A stretch of DNA of 64,000 nucleotides from Halovivax gelatinilyticus (lineage in GTDB: Archaea; Halobacteriota; Halobacteria; Halobacteriales; Natrialbaceae). The DNA lies in contig NZ_CP101322.1 in NCBI RefSeq assembly GCF_024300625.1, positions 571,992-635,991 on the forward strand, given 5' to 3'. Below, piece after piece: positions 31,313 to 47,904 of the stretch. Made by a program: the position numbers and the translations under genes. The notes under the pieces are model-generated. The model did not search any database, was not told where the DNA came from, and was given only the letters and a program-made list of their open reading frames with translations. Position 1 is the stretch's first letter, and each line of letters begins with the position of its first letter.

Positions 31313-31817
31313 ACAAACCAATAATAGTTCTAAACACTAATAACTTTTGGACGGAATTATCTAGTTTAAATTTTATATTTTTCATTATATAGTTAAAATT
31401 TGATGAGATTTGTTAGGTTCGGGCCTTTAATATGGTTTCACTTTTCGTGTGTAGTGATTGAGTGTCTGGATCTGTAGTCGGGTTATTGTAATCGACGAGT
31501 CGTTCAGGCCTACAGGTCGTACTTGACCAGCTACCAGCCTAACTCGGATGAGGCAGTAAATATCAACTACAGCGTCAGAAACCGCGCTTCGATCAGGTTA
31601 TTGGCTTCGCTGGTGAAAATAACCGCTCAGGTGTAGTCGGGAACAGGCACCCGAAGCCATCGATCGGAGACTTTACCTTTGAAACATCTAAGTGTTGGAA
31701 TGGACTCTTAGAGAACGTGGCACCTAAATTTCGTTCACGACGACCACCACTACGAAAACCCCAAGTTCACTCCTTCCGTCACACTTAGTCATCACCACTG
31801 TAGCAAGTGAGAAGTAA
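31313..31817. other. AT-rich non-coding stretch of the island
   Basis: 505 nt. The first 110 nt are very AT-rich and must hold the promoter of the leftward Tat-protein gene. The rest has no open frame with protein character; short frames are interrupted by stops, and I could not recognise a transposase in them. It may be decayed mobile-element DNA. Confidence 0.4.
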
Positions 31818-31838
31818 GCCCTGGGAGGGCTCCGAACC
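31818..31838 (-). repeat. Copy of the tRNA-Met 3' end
   Basis: 21 nt matching 31992-32012 of tRNA-Met at 20 positions, in the same orientation. It covers the acceptor 3' arm and most of the T arm. It lies 174 nt beyond the genuine tRNA end and closes the hairpin module described below. Confidence 0.75.
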
Positions 31839-31990
31839 ACGGGAAGACGGTCGCCTCACTCCGTTCGGGGTTGCGACTTCCCTGCCTCGCGTTCACTTCG
31901 TTCACGCGAGACCACCGGGTTCTACGCTTCTGCCGGGCACTGTTGTCCGGACTCGTCGCTCACTTCGTTCGTTCCTCGTCGTGGCAAAAG
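31839..31990 (-). other. Hairpin module between tRNA-Met and its 3'-end copy
   Basis: Two hairpins are clear. One pairs gggaag (31841-31846) with cttccc (31877-31882), nested on tcgc/gcga; the other pairs ctcgcg (31886-31891) with cgcgag (31905-31910). Read in the tRNA direction, each loop carries a GAACGNAGTGA motif; a third motif copy lies at 31960-31970. No open frame. Architecture and the first loop match a module downstream of tRNA-Val. Confidence 0.6.
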
Positions 31991-32134
31991 TGCCCGGGGA
32001 GGGCTCCGAACCCTCGATCTCCGCATGTCCCAGGTTCGAGGCTCGGCAGTCCTCGTGGGACACGGACTCGCTGTGCCGCACCGAATCTCTGAACCCTATG
32101 AGTGCGGCGCTATGTCCAGCTAAGCCACCCGGGC
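31991..32134 (-). tRNA. tRNA-Met (CAT), elongator, with intron
   Basis: The acceptor stem pairs GCCCGGG with CCCGGGC plus A73; no CCA is encoded. The anticodon stem CCGCA/TGCGG closes loop CTCATAA with anticodon CAT. The 5' exon is 32097-32134 and the 3' exon 31991-32026. The 70-nt intron (32027-32096) sits after position 37, the canonical archaeal site cut by the bulge-helix-bulge endonuclease. Haloarchaeal elongator tRNA-Met is known to carry an intron. The T arm has GGTTCGGAGCC. Confidence 0.93.
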
Positions 32135-44909: not shown

Positions 44910-45919
44910 CCGACCGTCCTCGCCGCCTGTCCGCTGAGTCGGTCGAGCGTCGCCGCCGCGTTACCGTCGTCGATGACCGCGCGGGCGCGCTCGACCCCCT
45001 CGGTAAGCGAATCGGCGCCGCCGCCGACGTAGATGGCCGCGCCCGCGTTCGCCAGGACGACGTCGCGTTTCGGACCCGTCAACGTTCCCCGGACGATTCC
45101 TTCGAGGTCGGCCGCGTTCTCGGCGGGCGTGCCGCCGGAAATCGCTTCGATGCGGTGGCGATCGAGCCCGAGATCCGACGGCGAGAGCGTGTAGGTGACG
45201 ACCGTTTCGCCGGTCACCTCCGCGACGCGCGTGGGGCCGTGGATGGCGATCTCGTCGGTGCCGGCGCCGTGGACGACGAGTGCACGCTCTACGGGCATTC
45301 GGGTGAGCGCGTTCGCGAGCACGGAGACGAGTTCGGGATCGTAGACGCCGATCACCTGCGCGGTGGCCCCGGCGGGATTCGTCAGCGGACCGAGGACGTT
45401 GAAGATCGTCCGCATCGCGAGTTCCGATCGCGGGCCGCTTACGGCTTTCATCGCCGGGTGAAACGCCGGCGCGTGGAGGTAGCCGATGCCGTCGCGTTCG
45501 ATCGTCGCTTCGACCGCGGCCGGGTCGGTTTCGAGGTCGACACCGAGCGCGCTGAGAACGTCCGAACTTCCAGACGAAGACGAGACGGCGGCGTTGCCGT
45601 GTTTGGCGACCGGAATTTCCGCCCCCGCGGTGACGATCGCACTCGTCGTCGAGACGTTGATCGTGTCGTGCTCGTCGCCGCCGGTGCCACAGGTGTCGAC
45701 CAGCGGTTCGCAGTCCGGATCGATGGTGTTCGCCGCCTCGCGCATGCCCTCGGCGAAGCCAGCGATTTCAGCTTCCGTCTCGCCCTTGGCTTTGAGTCCG
45801 GCGAGCAGGGCGCCGATCTGGGCGTCCGTAGCGCCGCCAAACACCTCGGAGACGGCCTGCTTCGCCTGGGACTGATCGAGGTCGACCCCTCTCGTTACGC
45901 GTTCGACGTGTGCCTTCAT
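44906..45919 (-). CDS. trpD: Anthranilate phosphoribosyltransferase
   Basis: 337 aa. The PRPP-binding signature is DTCGTGGDEHDTINVST (near residue 83) and the glycine-rich HGNAAVSSSSGSSDVLSALG follows. HPAMKAVSGPRSELAMRTIFN contains the conserved anthranilate-site residues. First gene of the leftward trpDFEG operon known from Haloferax; the trpCBA half is not in this window. It transfers phosphoribose to anthranilate. Confidence 0.95.
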   Translation of the reverse strand: MKAHVERVTRGVDLDQSQAKQAVSEVFGGATDAQIGALLAGLKAKGETEAEIAGFAEGMREAANTIDPDCEPLVDTCGTGGDEHDTINVSTTSAIVTAGAEIPVAKHGNAAVSSSSGSSDVLSALGVDLETDPAAVEATIERDGIGYLHAPAFHPAMKAVSGPRSELAMRTIFNVLGPLTNPAGATAQVIGVYDPELVSVLANALTRMPVERALVVHGAGTDEIAIHGPTRVAEVTGETVVTYTLSPSDLGLDRHRIEAISGGTPAENAADLEGIVRGTLTGPKRDVVLANAGAAIYVGGGADSLTEGVERARAVIDDGNAAATLDRLSGQAARTVG

Positions 45920-45972
45920 ACAAGATCACTATTGGACCTGATTGTTCTACAATGCCCAAATCTGTACACCAA

Positions 45973-45978
45973 CTTAAG
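45973..45978 (-). promoter_or_regulatory. Probable promoter box of trpDFEG
   Basis: cttaag, an AT-rich hexamer typical of haloarchaeal TATA variants, lies 53 nt before the trpD ATG, predicting a leader of about 25-30 nt. Confidence 0.35.
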
Positions 45979-46077
45979 CGTATCGGTCAGTCGAGCGCTG
46001 CCGGATCGGGCGAGTGGAGAGTAGACGGTTCGGCTCAGCGAACGAATACGGCGCCCGTCCCGGCGTCGACTAATTCG

Positions 46078-46087
46078 AAACCTTCAA
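46078..46087 (+). promoter_or_regulatory. AAACCTTCAA box upstream of tRNA-Val
   Basis: Identical decamer to those at 16176 and 33778; here 46 nt before the mature tRNA 5' end, leaving room for a short 5' leader to be removed by RNase P. Confidence 0.45.
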
Positions 46088-46133
46088 TTACGGTGGCGGG
46101 CAACGATTGGATGCAGACGAACGCAAGCCGGAC

Positions 46134-46208
46134 GGGTTGGTGGTCTAGTCTGGTTATGACACCTCCTTGACATGGAGGAGGCCGGCAGTTCAAATCTGCC
46201 CCAACCCA
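46134..46208 (+). tRNA. tRNA-Val (GAC)
   Basis: 75 nt. Acceptor stem GGGTTGG/CCAACCC with A73, anticodon stem CCTCC/GGAGG closing loop TTGACAT, anticodon GAC. The T arm has GGCAGTTCAAATCTGCC. No CCA encoded and no intron. It is followed by TTTT and by two modules that end in copies of its own 3' end. Confidence 0.95.
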
Positions 46209-46212
46209 TTTT
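46188..46212 (+). repeat. tRNA-Val 3'-end repeat, copy 1 (within the tRNA)
   Basis: The 25-nt stretch from the T loop through the acceptor end and the TTTT that follows. Copies 2 and 3 differ from it by one base in the T arm (AACT for AAAT). Confidence 0.85.
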
Positions 46213-46321
46213 CCCGACGCAACAACGACGAGCGAAGCGAGGAGTCCGCGTCGGGAAATTGATTGAACACAGATTTGAACTACGCAAGTCACGCGCAGCG
46301 AAGCGAGCATGTCTTGCAGCA
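46213..46321 (+). other. Hairpin module 1 downstream of tRNA-Val
   Basis: A perfect 10-bp stem pairs ttcccgacgc (46211-46220) with gcgtcgggaa (46248-46257); its loop carries GAGCGAAGCGAG (46230-46241). Then ggaaattgat and cagatttgaact (46270-46281), a 12-nt inverted copy of the tRNA T arm. A second hairpin (gcaag/cttgc) holds CAGCGAAGCGAG (46296-46307). It contains no credible open frame. Confidence 0.6.
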
Positions 46322-46346
46322 GTTCAACTCTGCCCCAACCCATTTT
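46322..46346 (+). repeat. tRNA-Val 3'-end repeat, copy 2
   Basis: 25 nt, 24 identical to copy 1, starting 134 nt after it. The next 8 nt (cgagcgac) begin the stem of module 2 and recur after copy 3. Confidence 0.85.
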
Positions 46347-46463
46347 CGAGCGACAAATTACGACGAGCCCAGCGAGTCGCACGTCGCTCGGAAATTGATA
46401 CGGGAGATTTGAACGAGACGAGTCGCAGCGCCCGAACGGAGTGAGGGCGACCGTCTCGGCGTC
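46347..46463 (+). other. Hairpin module 2 downstream of tRNA-Val
   Basis: Same plan as module 1 with different stem letters: cgagcgac (46347-46354) pairs with gtcgctcg (46383-46390); loop motif GAGCCCAGCGAG (46365-46376); shared ggaaattgat (46390-46399); inverted T-arm piece agatttgaac (46405-46414). The second hairpin cgagacg/cgtctcg (46414-46420 with 46452-46458) has inner stem gtcgc/gcgac and loop GAACGGAGTGAG (46434-46445). Confidence 0.6.
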
Positions 46464-46488
46464 GTTCAACTCTGCCCCAACCCATTTT
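46464..46488 (+). repeat. tRNA-Val 3'-end repeat, copy 3
   Basis: 25 nt identical to copy 2, starting 142 nt after it, again followed by cgagcgac (to 46496). Confidence 0.85.
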
Positions 46489-46500
46489 CGAGCGACCCTA

Positions 46501-46505
46501 TTTTT
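46501..46505 (+). terminator. T-run after the tRNA-Val repeat array
   Basis: Five T residues right after the last repeat copy, a likely end point for a transcript running from tRNA-Val through both modules. TTTT also follows each repeat copy and could cause partial termination there. Confidence 0.4.
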
Positions 46506-46590
46506 CCAACCTAGCCACTTCTGACGGGCCGACGAGGGCTAGGGTGAGTCAAACACTCGTCCTGTAGCCGCCCCCGAATCGGCAAAAGCG

Positions 46591-46597
46591 CTTATAG
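46591..46597 (+). promoter_or_regulatory. TATA box of the membrane-protein gene at 46621
   Basis: cttatag, 23 nt before the GTG at 46621, supports a leaderless transcript starting at that GTG and argues against the earlier codon at 46597. Confidence 0.5.
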
Positions 46598-46620
46598 TGA
46601 GCGACCCCCTTCCTTGTGTC

Positions 46621-47904
46621 GTGAATGTCAGGAACGGCGTAACGTTGGGCGTCCTCGTGTTGGTACTCTTCGTGGCGATCCTCTCTGCGAACGTGCTGGT
46701 GGCCGCCGATCGTACGGTCCTGGATGCCGAGTACGCCGCCGATACGGCCGAAGAGGCCGAGTTGTACGACGAGATAACGGCCGAGCTACACGCGGAGTTG
46801 CGCGGCGAGGCGGACGTCGGCGGGTCCGGCATGCCGACCGACGCCGCTGCAGAAGAGATACTCGAGAGCGCGATATCGAGCGAGTACGTGCAGGGCGAGG
46901 TGACTGCGGCCATCGAGCAGGTCTACGCCTACCTCCACGGCGAGACGGACGAGCTTCGAATCATTGTCGACACCGAGCCGGTGAAAGCGGGAGTACTAGA
47001 AGCACTCGAAGCAGAGTTCGAGACGCTCGGCCCGGCGGACGTCGGCGAGGAGCTCTCGACCGCAGTTCCGTCGGACCTGGGCGAAGAGAACCCGGGCGTC
47101 GCGATCGAGGAGATGGCCGAGAGCGAATCTCGCTTCGTCGAACACCGCGAGGCGTTCGAAGAACGAGCGAAAGAACGGATCCAGGAGGAAACGCCGTATC
47201 CGATGACCGACGAGCAACTCGACGCCGCCTACGAGGACGAGCGCGAGGAGATCAGAGCCGAACTCGTCTCCGAACAAGACGAGTTGATCGATCGGGCGGT
47301 CGCCGACGGAGCGCTCGATGGCGCGTACGAAGCCCCGGTTCGCCAGATCTCGCAGGCCCGGATCGACGCGGTCACGGGCGAGATCGGCTACGACGAATAC
47401 GTCGATCGCGTCGAGAGCGCAACGGCCGACGTGAGAGCGGTGGCGCTCGAGGAAGCCGCCGCCGAGCTGGACGCGGAATTTCCCGAGACGGTCGACCTCT
47501 CCGACGAGTTCGGCGCGGACGAAGCGAGTTCGATGGAGACCGCACAGACCGCGACGTCGACCGCGTCGACGCTCGCGTTCGTCCTGCCGCTTCTCGGGCT
47601 CGCGCTCGTGGGGGCCGTCGCGTACCTCTGGCCGGCGTCGACCACGGCCATCGCGGTCGGAGCCGTCTCGGCCGTCGCGGGACTCGTCGGCGTCGTGGCG
47701 TCGCGGGTCACCGGGAGCGTTCTCGACGACGCGATAGGATCCGCCAGCGGTCCCGACGCCGCCGAGCGGTTCGTCGAGTTACTCCTCGGCGGGATGCTGG
47801 ATCTTCTCACCTGGCAATCGGGCGGGTTGCTGATCGTCGGGGTCGGCCTGGTCGGACTCGGCATCGCCATCCGACGCGGGCTGGTCCTCCCCGATCTGGA
47901 GTGA
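46621..47904 (+). CDS. Membrane protein with large extracytoplasmic helical domain
   Basis: 427 aa from a GTG at 46621, chosen from the TATA box position. One N-terminal helix (LGVLVLVLFVAILSANVLVAA) is followed by about 290 residues, very Glu/Ala-rich and mostly helical, outside the membrane, and then three or four helices (residues about 320-420). I do not recognise the family. The plan resembles a membrane-tethered sensor or channel-like protein. Codon use is normal for the window. Confidence 0.7.
   Translation: MNVRNGVTLGVLVLVLFVAILSANVLVAADRTVLDAEYAADTAEEAELYDEITAELHAELRGEADVGGSGMPTDAAAEEILESAISSEYVQGEVTAAIEQVYAYLHGETDELRIIVDTEPVKAGVLEALEAEFETLGPADVGEELSTAVPSDLGEENPGVAIEEMAESESRFVEHREAFEERAKERIQEETPYPMTDEQLDAAYEDEREEIRAELVSEQDELIDRAVADGALDGAYEAPVRQISQARIDAVTGEIGYDEYVDRVESATADVRAVALEEAAAELDAEFPETVDLSDEFGADEASSMETAQTATSTASTLAFVLPLLGLALVGAVAYLWPASTTAIAVGAVSAVAGLVGVVASRVTGSVLDDAIGSASGPDAAERFVELLLGGMLDLLTWQSGGLLIVGVGLVGLGIAIRRGLVLPDLE

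Follow-up and report, generated by a model that had tools for sequence, protein, structure and literature searches.

Repeats that carry a copy of a neighbouring tRNA's own 3′ end are known from Escherichia coli, where the 178-nt rtT repeats of tyrT/tyrV lie behind the tRNA and on its strand. To our knowledge, they have been a single-locus curiosity for decades and their role is unclear. In the K-12 sequence (1286000–1288500), we found that the copied tRNA-Tyr tail ATCCTTCCCC of each repeat has its reverse complement in an arm, GGGGAAGGAT, which stands 80 nt upstream of the tail copy, around a hairpin. The E. coli record annotates rttR as an ncRNA. Two further kinds of element resemble the haloarchaeal units described here. 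Integron attC arrays are also tandem arrays of small units with an imperfect hairpin end, fixed mismatches, one favoured strand and additions near a fixed end, and REP elements and the PATEs (palindrome-associated transposable elements) of Haloquadratum (PMC3119063) are likewise short, palindromic and without a transposase. In Haloquadratum, prophages are also known to partially duplicate tRNA 3′ ends (PMC3119063).

The window, by which we mean the whole 64,000-nt stretch of Halovivax gelatinilyticus DNA that was analysed, holds an array of such units behind tRNA-Val(GAC) (Table 1). The preliminary description of this DNA had reported three copies of the tRNA's 3′ end, two intervening modules with paired stems, an inverted piece of the T arm in each module and a closing T run, and all of these are present, with the three copies at the coordinates that it gave. 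Tail copies 2 and 3 are identical to each other and a single base apart from the tRNA. Each module is in fact two hairpins, A and B, because the inverted piece of the T arm forms a stem with the following tail copy, whose acceptor strand stays unpaired at the end of the unit. The stem of hairpin A has 11 bp without a mismatch in unit 1, and in unit 2 it has 8 perfect bp and one T.G wobble, then TTT/AAA. With R1, a covariance model of hairpin B built from 18 distinct hairpins, hairpin B scores 73.1 bits on the plus strand and 20.8 on the minus strand in unit 1 (which belongs to the model's own 18 training sequences), and 44.8 and 16.8 bits, respectively, in unit 2. The RNA fold of 46209–46505 (297 nt) reaches −111.6 kcal/mol, compared with −88.3 (sd 5.25) for 200 dinucleotide shuffles, none of which attained the native energy (z −4.4). 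An Rfam scan of the array returned only the tRNA and chance microRNA matches.

Table 1. Features of the two tRNA loci of the window, in positions of the window
Feature	Position	Strand	Basis or remark
tRNA-Val(GAC), without encoded CCA	46134–46208	+	ARAGORN; Rfam tRNA 64.7 bits
Copied 21-nt tail, tRNA positions 53–73	46188–46208	+	
Unit 1, hairpin A	46209–46258	+	arms 46210–46220 and 46248–46258
Unit 1, hairpin B	46268–46334	+	anti-T arm 46271–46280, core, T-arm part of tail copy
Tail copy 2	46322–46342	+	20/21 vs tRNA
Unit 2, hairpin A	46343–46394	+	arms 46343–46354 and 46383–46394
Unit 2, hairpin B	46402–46476	+	anti-T arm 46405–46414; core with CGAACGGAGTGAG at 46433–46445
Tail copy 3	46464–46484	+	20/21 vs tRNA
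Second occurrence of 5′ arm of unit 2 hairpin A, without 3′ arm	46485–46496	+	behind last tail copy
T run closing the array	46500–46504	+	sequence
Intron-containing tRNA, CAT anticodon	31991–32134	−	overlooked by ARAGORN
Hairpin B of the CAT-anticodon tRNA's unit	31825–31894	−	R1 16.5 bits, E 0.24, weak
Tail copy of the CAT-anticodon tRNA	31817–31837	−	GTTCGGAGCCCTCCCAGGGCT vs GTTCGGAGCCCTCCCCGGGCA, 19/21

A likeness to the tyrT repeats, with unrelated sequence, had also been proposed, and both halves of the proposal hold. Two of the features by which we would recognize an RtT-like layout, a repeat of the tRNA's own tail and a complementary upstream arm enclosing a hairpin, are found here, the inverted arm being common to both systems. 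Membership of the RtT RNA family itself was rejected: Rfam RF00391 had no match in 45900–46700 at E up to 5, while the same model gave four matches of 133–138 bits on E. coli as a positive control. The two systems also differ in detail, since the E. coli copy has CCA and an arm of about positions 58–67, whereas the haloarchaeal arm covers 57–65, and unit lengths are not the same. Above all, rtT sits at one locus, unlike the units here, which accompany about half of the tRNA genes. The window itself contains a second member of the family at 31817–32134 on the minus strand, made up of a tRNA, a hairpin B and a copy of that tRNA's own tail.

Units of this kind measure ~80–160 nt and lie 3′ of a tRNA on the same strand, with hairpin A followed by hairpin B. 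The 5′ arm of hairpin B is antisense to the T loop and the 3′ T-stem strand (tRNA positions 57–65), its core has a fixed internal-loop pattern, and its 3′ arm consists of the tRNA's own positions 53–73. Unit boundaries fall at the same positions, 53 and 73, in all tRNAs: identity between copy and tRNA is at least 0.95 from position 53, ~0.3 just upstream and 0.58 past position 73, while position 52 alone stands at 0.75, compared with 0.65 at random. The anti-T arm is tRNA-specific only at 57–65, and its end is the border between T stem and acceptor. Among the 274 units parsed in the wider set, the tail is perfect (21/21) in 179, and the T arm of the unit's own tRNA is a better fit than those of other tRNAs in 233. 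The left arm also tracks the T-loop variant. The loop GTTCAAATC is accompanied by GATTTGAA (137 units, vs 4 with GATTCGAA), GTTCGAATC goes with GATTCGAA (11 vs 1), and GTTCAATTC goes with GAATTGAA in 4/4. In several genomes, tail copies with GTTCACAATC instead of GTTCAAATC turn up repeatedly, in units of Lys, Pro, Thr, Phe and Val tRNAs, and there the left arm remains GATTTGAA.

The preliminary description had rested on the two modules behind tRNA-Val, and while these are real, the true basis of the pattern is a family of cassettes, each specific to its tRNA. In the window's genome, the layout is found behind Ala, Gly, Ile, Lys, Val, Arg, Ser, Tyr, Asn, Glu, Met, Pro, Thr, Leu and Cys tRNAs, each time with the tail of that tRNA, and relatives of the tRNA-Val array stand behind tRNA-Val in many genera of Natrialbaceae. 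Three complete genomes of the same genus have own-tail units at 17/39, 23/39 and 21/39 tRNA genes (23, 41 and 31 units, 1–5 per tRNA gene); these counts depend on the tail threshold of 16/21 and on the tRNAs that ARAGORN detects. R1 matches were found in 237 of 242 haloarchaeal genomes (98%) and in 71/73 genera. A draw of 148 genomes from the phylum gave matches in 23/24 of the order and in none of the 124 same-phylum genomes outside it. The matches are also strongly tied to tRNA genes: in three genomes, 91/98 lie 36–539 nt 3′ of a tRNA on the same strand (0.4% by chance), and the remaining seven, at six places, are each preceded by a stray tail of their tRNA, 13–21 nt long. Scanning named genomes for the pattern added 88 own-tail cases, nearly all from haloarchaea, ranging from Halorubrum and Haloferax to Haloarcula and Halobacterium. 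No unit was seen at the Ala-TGC, Leu-CAG, Ser-GCT and His tRNAs, where conserved sequence adjoins downstream. Phage records had no match to the units, viral contigs had pattern matches of which none lies beside a tRNA with its own tail, and plasmids have units clearly only beside tRNA genes. On the 828-kb plasmid of Natronorubrum bangense, for example, tRNA-Val(CAC) has a unit, so that units accompany a tRNA gene onto secondary replicons. Separately, some intergenic clusters that are rich in hairpins but away from tRNAs also contain the hairpin motif CGAACGNAGTGAG (one at ~368.8 kb of genome G000), and two plasmids have a B-like core flanked by CTGAAAGGGCGAG and GAGGGCTTTC; these are possibly another haloarchaeal hairpin element with the core in common. 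The haloarchaeal units look like an overlooked family. We found no description of them in the literature, which was searched without subscription journals or preprints, and their novelty is provisional.

Pairing-preserving changes between the two modules had been read as selection on a fold, with covariation across homologues as the proposed check, and the homologues bear this out. Among the 18 distinct hairpins behind R1, all of one length, 17 of the 26 pairs of hairpin B have two-sided changes with pairing kept, compared with 4–7 pairs in versions slid by 1–3 columns and 9.6 ± 1.5 in column shuffles, of which 0/500 came near 17. Relatedness is only partly controlled, via the slid versions, and the significance is not fully corrected for kinship. 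RNAalifold independently recovers the same helix. Compensatory changes beyond the controls, as would be demanded of a structured RNA, are present. Hairpin A forms perfect 9-bp helices in 70 units, compared with 11 after shuffling, and does so with 55 different arms; its sequence therefore turns over while its pairing stays. The fold also has a direction. The predicted fold is better for the tRNA-sense strand than for the complementary one in 77/97 units, with a mean difference of 4.7 kcal/mol, and the motif CGA-NC-GNA-GN-GAG, which we take to fold as tandem sheared G.A pairs with a GNA loop, is on the tRNA strand in 205/258 units and on the opposite strand in 7. Its inner pair alternates between A-T, G-C and C-G (AC/GT, GC/GC, CC/GG). 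Motif orientation and fold energies are useful strand tests. Counts of G.T and A.C mismatches over all 1×1 loops did not differ significantly (52 to 44, p 0.48), because the core's fixed C.A mismatches outweigh the rest. The strand bias is equally compatible with a hairpin of single-stranded DNA, and these tests leave the choice between RNA and single-stranded DNA undecided.

The number of units differs among relatives. Orthologous tRNAs vary in unit number (tRNA-Gly-TCC has 2, 5 and 0 units in three genomes of the same genus), and Leu-CAA, Ala-CGC and Arg-TCG are followed by a unit in one species but not in another, the absent piece being exactly the whole unit with one 21-nt tail. Extra units tend to adjoin the tRNA (Val-TAC, Ile, Glu, Cys), and the last copies of arrays are more worn (36/72 perfect vs 68/89, p 8e-4), mostly at the acceptor end. 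Hairpin A and the core of hairpin B are shared by tRNAs of different identity within a genome. The tail and anti-T arm are particular to their locus and look as though they were copied from the tRNA when the unit arose, or through conversion. Exact presence or absence, addition next to the tRNA, worn last copies and shared A hairpins and cores are all points in favour of DNA cassettes that move as folded single strands, in an integron-like or REP-like manner, and the favoured strand and the fixed mismatches, which resemble those of attC sites and REPs, point the same way. Under such a scheme, the T loop would be the docking site, hairpin B would be a folded recombination site imitating the double-stranded T-loop site, the copied tail would restore the tRNA at each insertion, and RNA folding would be a by-product. 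We regard this as the main rival to the reading that we prefer, although only as a tentative one. No linked recombinase was found, the only integrases being beside displaced units (see below), and the units lack the genes that integrons carry; no gene-carrying cassette was seen. The search for an IntI-type enzyme found no integrase within ~1.5 kb of the arrays, with one query family, and does not exclude a gene acting from a distance. Absence from phage records and restriction on plasmids to the neighbourhood of tRNA genes also count against movement of this kind, and a tail and anti-T arm rewritten for each tRNA are unlike simple cassette movement. Unlike PATEs, which are dispersed and have no target duplication (PMC3119063), the units occur only beside tRNA genes and with a 21-nt direct repeat.

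Other array-forming systems were considered and rejected. A CRISPR array does not fit interspersed parts that are conserved hairpins common to several loci, and a CRISPR- or casposon-like insertion with a 21-nt target duplication would fit the additions near the tRNA but leaves the inverted arm unexplained. There was no evidence for a tRNA intron of the bulge-helix-bulge type. A further proposal, beyond single-stranded movement as such, is that the units form a new class of tRNA-addressed cassettes, docking at the T loop through the anti-T/T-arm hairpin, renewing the tRNA end and fitted to each tRNA. Taken jointly with addition near the tRNA, ageing outward, near-universal occurrence in haloarchaea and counterparts in Woesearchaeota and rtT, it is a possibility that we would hold equally loosely.

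Similar layouts do occur in unrelated organisms. One Woesearchaeota (DPANN) genome has own-tail anti-T hairpins behind tRNA-Ser, tRNA-Ile and tRNA-Val, and a second genome has one, all with unrelated cores. In a marine assembly labelled bacterial, an own-tail anti-T hairpin lies behind tRNA-Asp, between two terminator-like hairpins, with a repeat that extends 7 nt beyond the tRNA. Such recurrence may suggest that the units are neutral by-products, without function, in which slippage or recombination at short homologies duplicated the tRNA 3′ end in tandem, while ectopic conversion between T-loop sequences and quasi-palindrome correction held the arms complementary. The T arm is itself a quasi-palindrome, the 21-nt tails would be good recombination partners, and the decay of the last copies at the acceptor end is in keeping with this idea. 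So is the behaviour of the left arm, which, where the copy is mutated in the T loop, still matches the tRNA rather than the copy (28 to 6); pairing with the copy is therefore not strictly compensated within loci. Correction of palindromes, however, should erase mismatches and affect both strands equally, whereas the tandem G.A pairs, the GNA loops and the internal mismatches persist on a single strand, at the ratio of 205 to 7 given above, and the R1 score is 52 bits higher on the plus strand. With the occurrence in 98% of haloarchaeal genomes, this makes a purely neutral origin unlikely.

The preliminary description had named plain integrase att-site scars as the finding that would refute it. 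Integrases do use these tRNA ends, where copies of 13–21 nt mark integration, and the Haloquadratum prophages set a precedent, so it might be supposed that the units are attR scars of prophages or plasmids that were later lost. At six loci, however, elements have integrated into the tRNA end and displaced an older unit away from the tRNA, and their new junctions show only a bare tail of 13–21 nt, with no hairpin B. Two of these junctions have ORFs that Pfam assigns to Phage_integrase and its SAM-like domain. Another junction has a similar integrase ORF, one more has a partial match, and one integrase-bearing element probably begins at a tRNA-Arg(TCT) ~19 kb upstream. Related integrases in our data set occur solely beside displaced units and never at an intact array. 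Plain att scars are unsupported because the elements that did integrate at these tRNAs leave no hairpin B, and neither of the marks that scars should bear, a flanking integrase and the same structure left by known elements, was observed. The att sites of SSV-type and pNOB8-type integrases differ in the same way, true elements leaving 13–21 nt without hairpin B and with an integrase that the units do not have. Uniform boundaries at 53 and 73, and a conserved fold instead of a random residue, also speak against scars, which we consider very unlikely. In Bifidobacterium genomes and prophage contigs, a perfect inverted repeat of the tRNA-Met T arm and adjacent sequence precedes a tRNA-Met tail, and this is probably an attachment site.

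We also considered that the unit might act in cis on its own tRNA. As a switch, the anti-T arm would spoil the T arm of the tRNA until the later tail copy sequesters it, so that only transcripts of whole units yield a good tRNA. Predicted T-stem pairing is indeed higher with the whole unit (0.53) than with a unit cut in its core, which leaves the anti-T arm free (0.12; 60 units, p 3e-9), and an arm that keeps matching the tRNA after the copy has mutated, and that ends at the T-stem border, would be expected of such a device. Against it, the tRNA folds before the arm is made, an order that equilibrium folding ignores, and with a shuffled left arm, the T stem is predicted to form as well or better (0.64), so that the folding assigns the arm no benefit. 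We find this the least credible of the readings weighed here. Folding of tRNA and unit together was not decisive either, as acceptor pairing is ambiguous and depends on multiloop parameters.

The explanation that we prefer, at a probability of about 0.5, is that the units are structured trailers of tRNAs, probably transcribed, and that they multiply as cassettes; both transcription and function are only inferred, from sequence. A trailer of RNA is favoured because of the position and strand of the units, the conserved sense-strand fold, the anti-T arm ending at a domain border and the precedent of rtT. The units would be co-transcribed with the tRNA as a long trailer, and tRNase Z would cut after position 73, freeing RNAs with a tRNA-like tail that may be compared with the E. 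coli RttR RNA. Hairpin B would then replace the T arm on the freed tail and mask the copied T-loop strand from the tRNA. Arrays would grow next to the tRNA and shrink through recombination between 21-nt tails. It speaks against a trailer that hairpin A frequently opens with TTTT immediately 3′ of the tRNA, which may stop transcription. T runs are sparser than A runs inside units (0.5 vs 2.0 per kb), although we discount this as evidence because hairpin A pairs the first T run with a later A run. The units are not needed for making the tRNA, since about half of the tRNAs have none. Finally, transcribed trailers and cassettes of single-stranded DNA could be compatible with each other.

With these units, the single-locus curiosity of rtT becomes a family with thousands of natural examples, and the role of such tails is therefore testable. 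As the tail and the anti-T arm are rewritten for each tRNA, there must be a mechanism by which tRNA sequence is copied or fitted into the units, and its discovery would reveal new biology of tRNA genes, whether in 3′-end processing or in DNA recombination. For archaeal genomes more generally, repeats of tRNA 3′ ends do not by themselves prove integrated elements.
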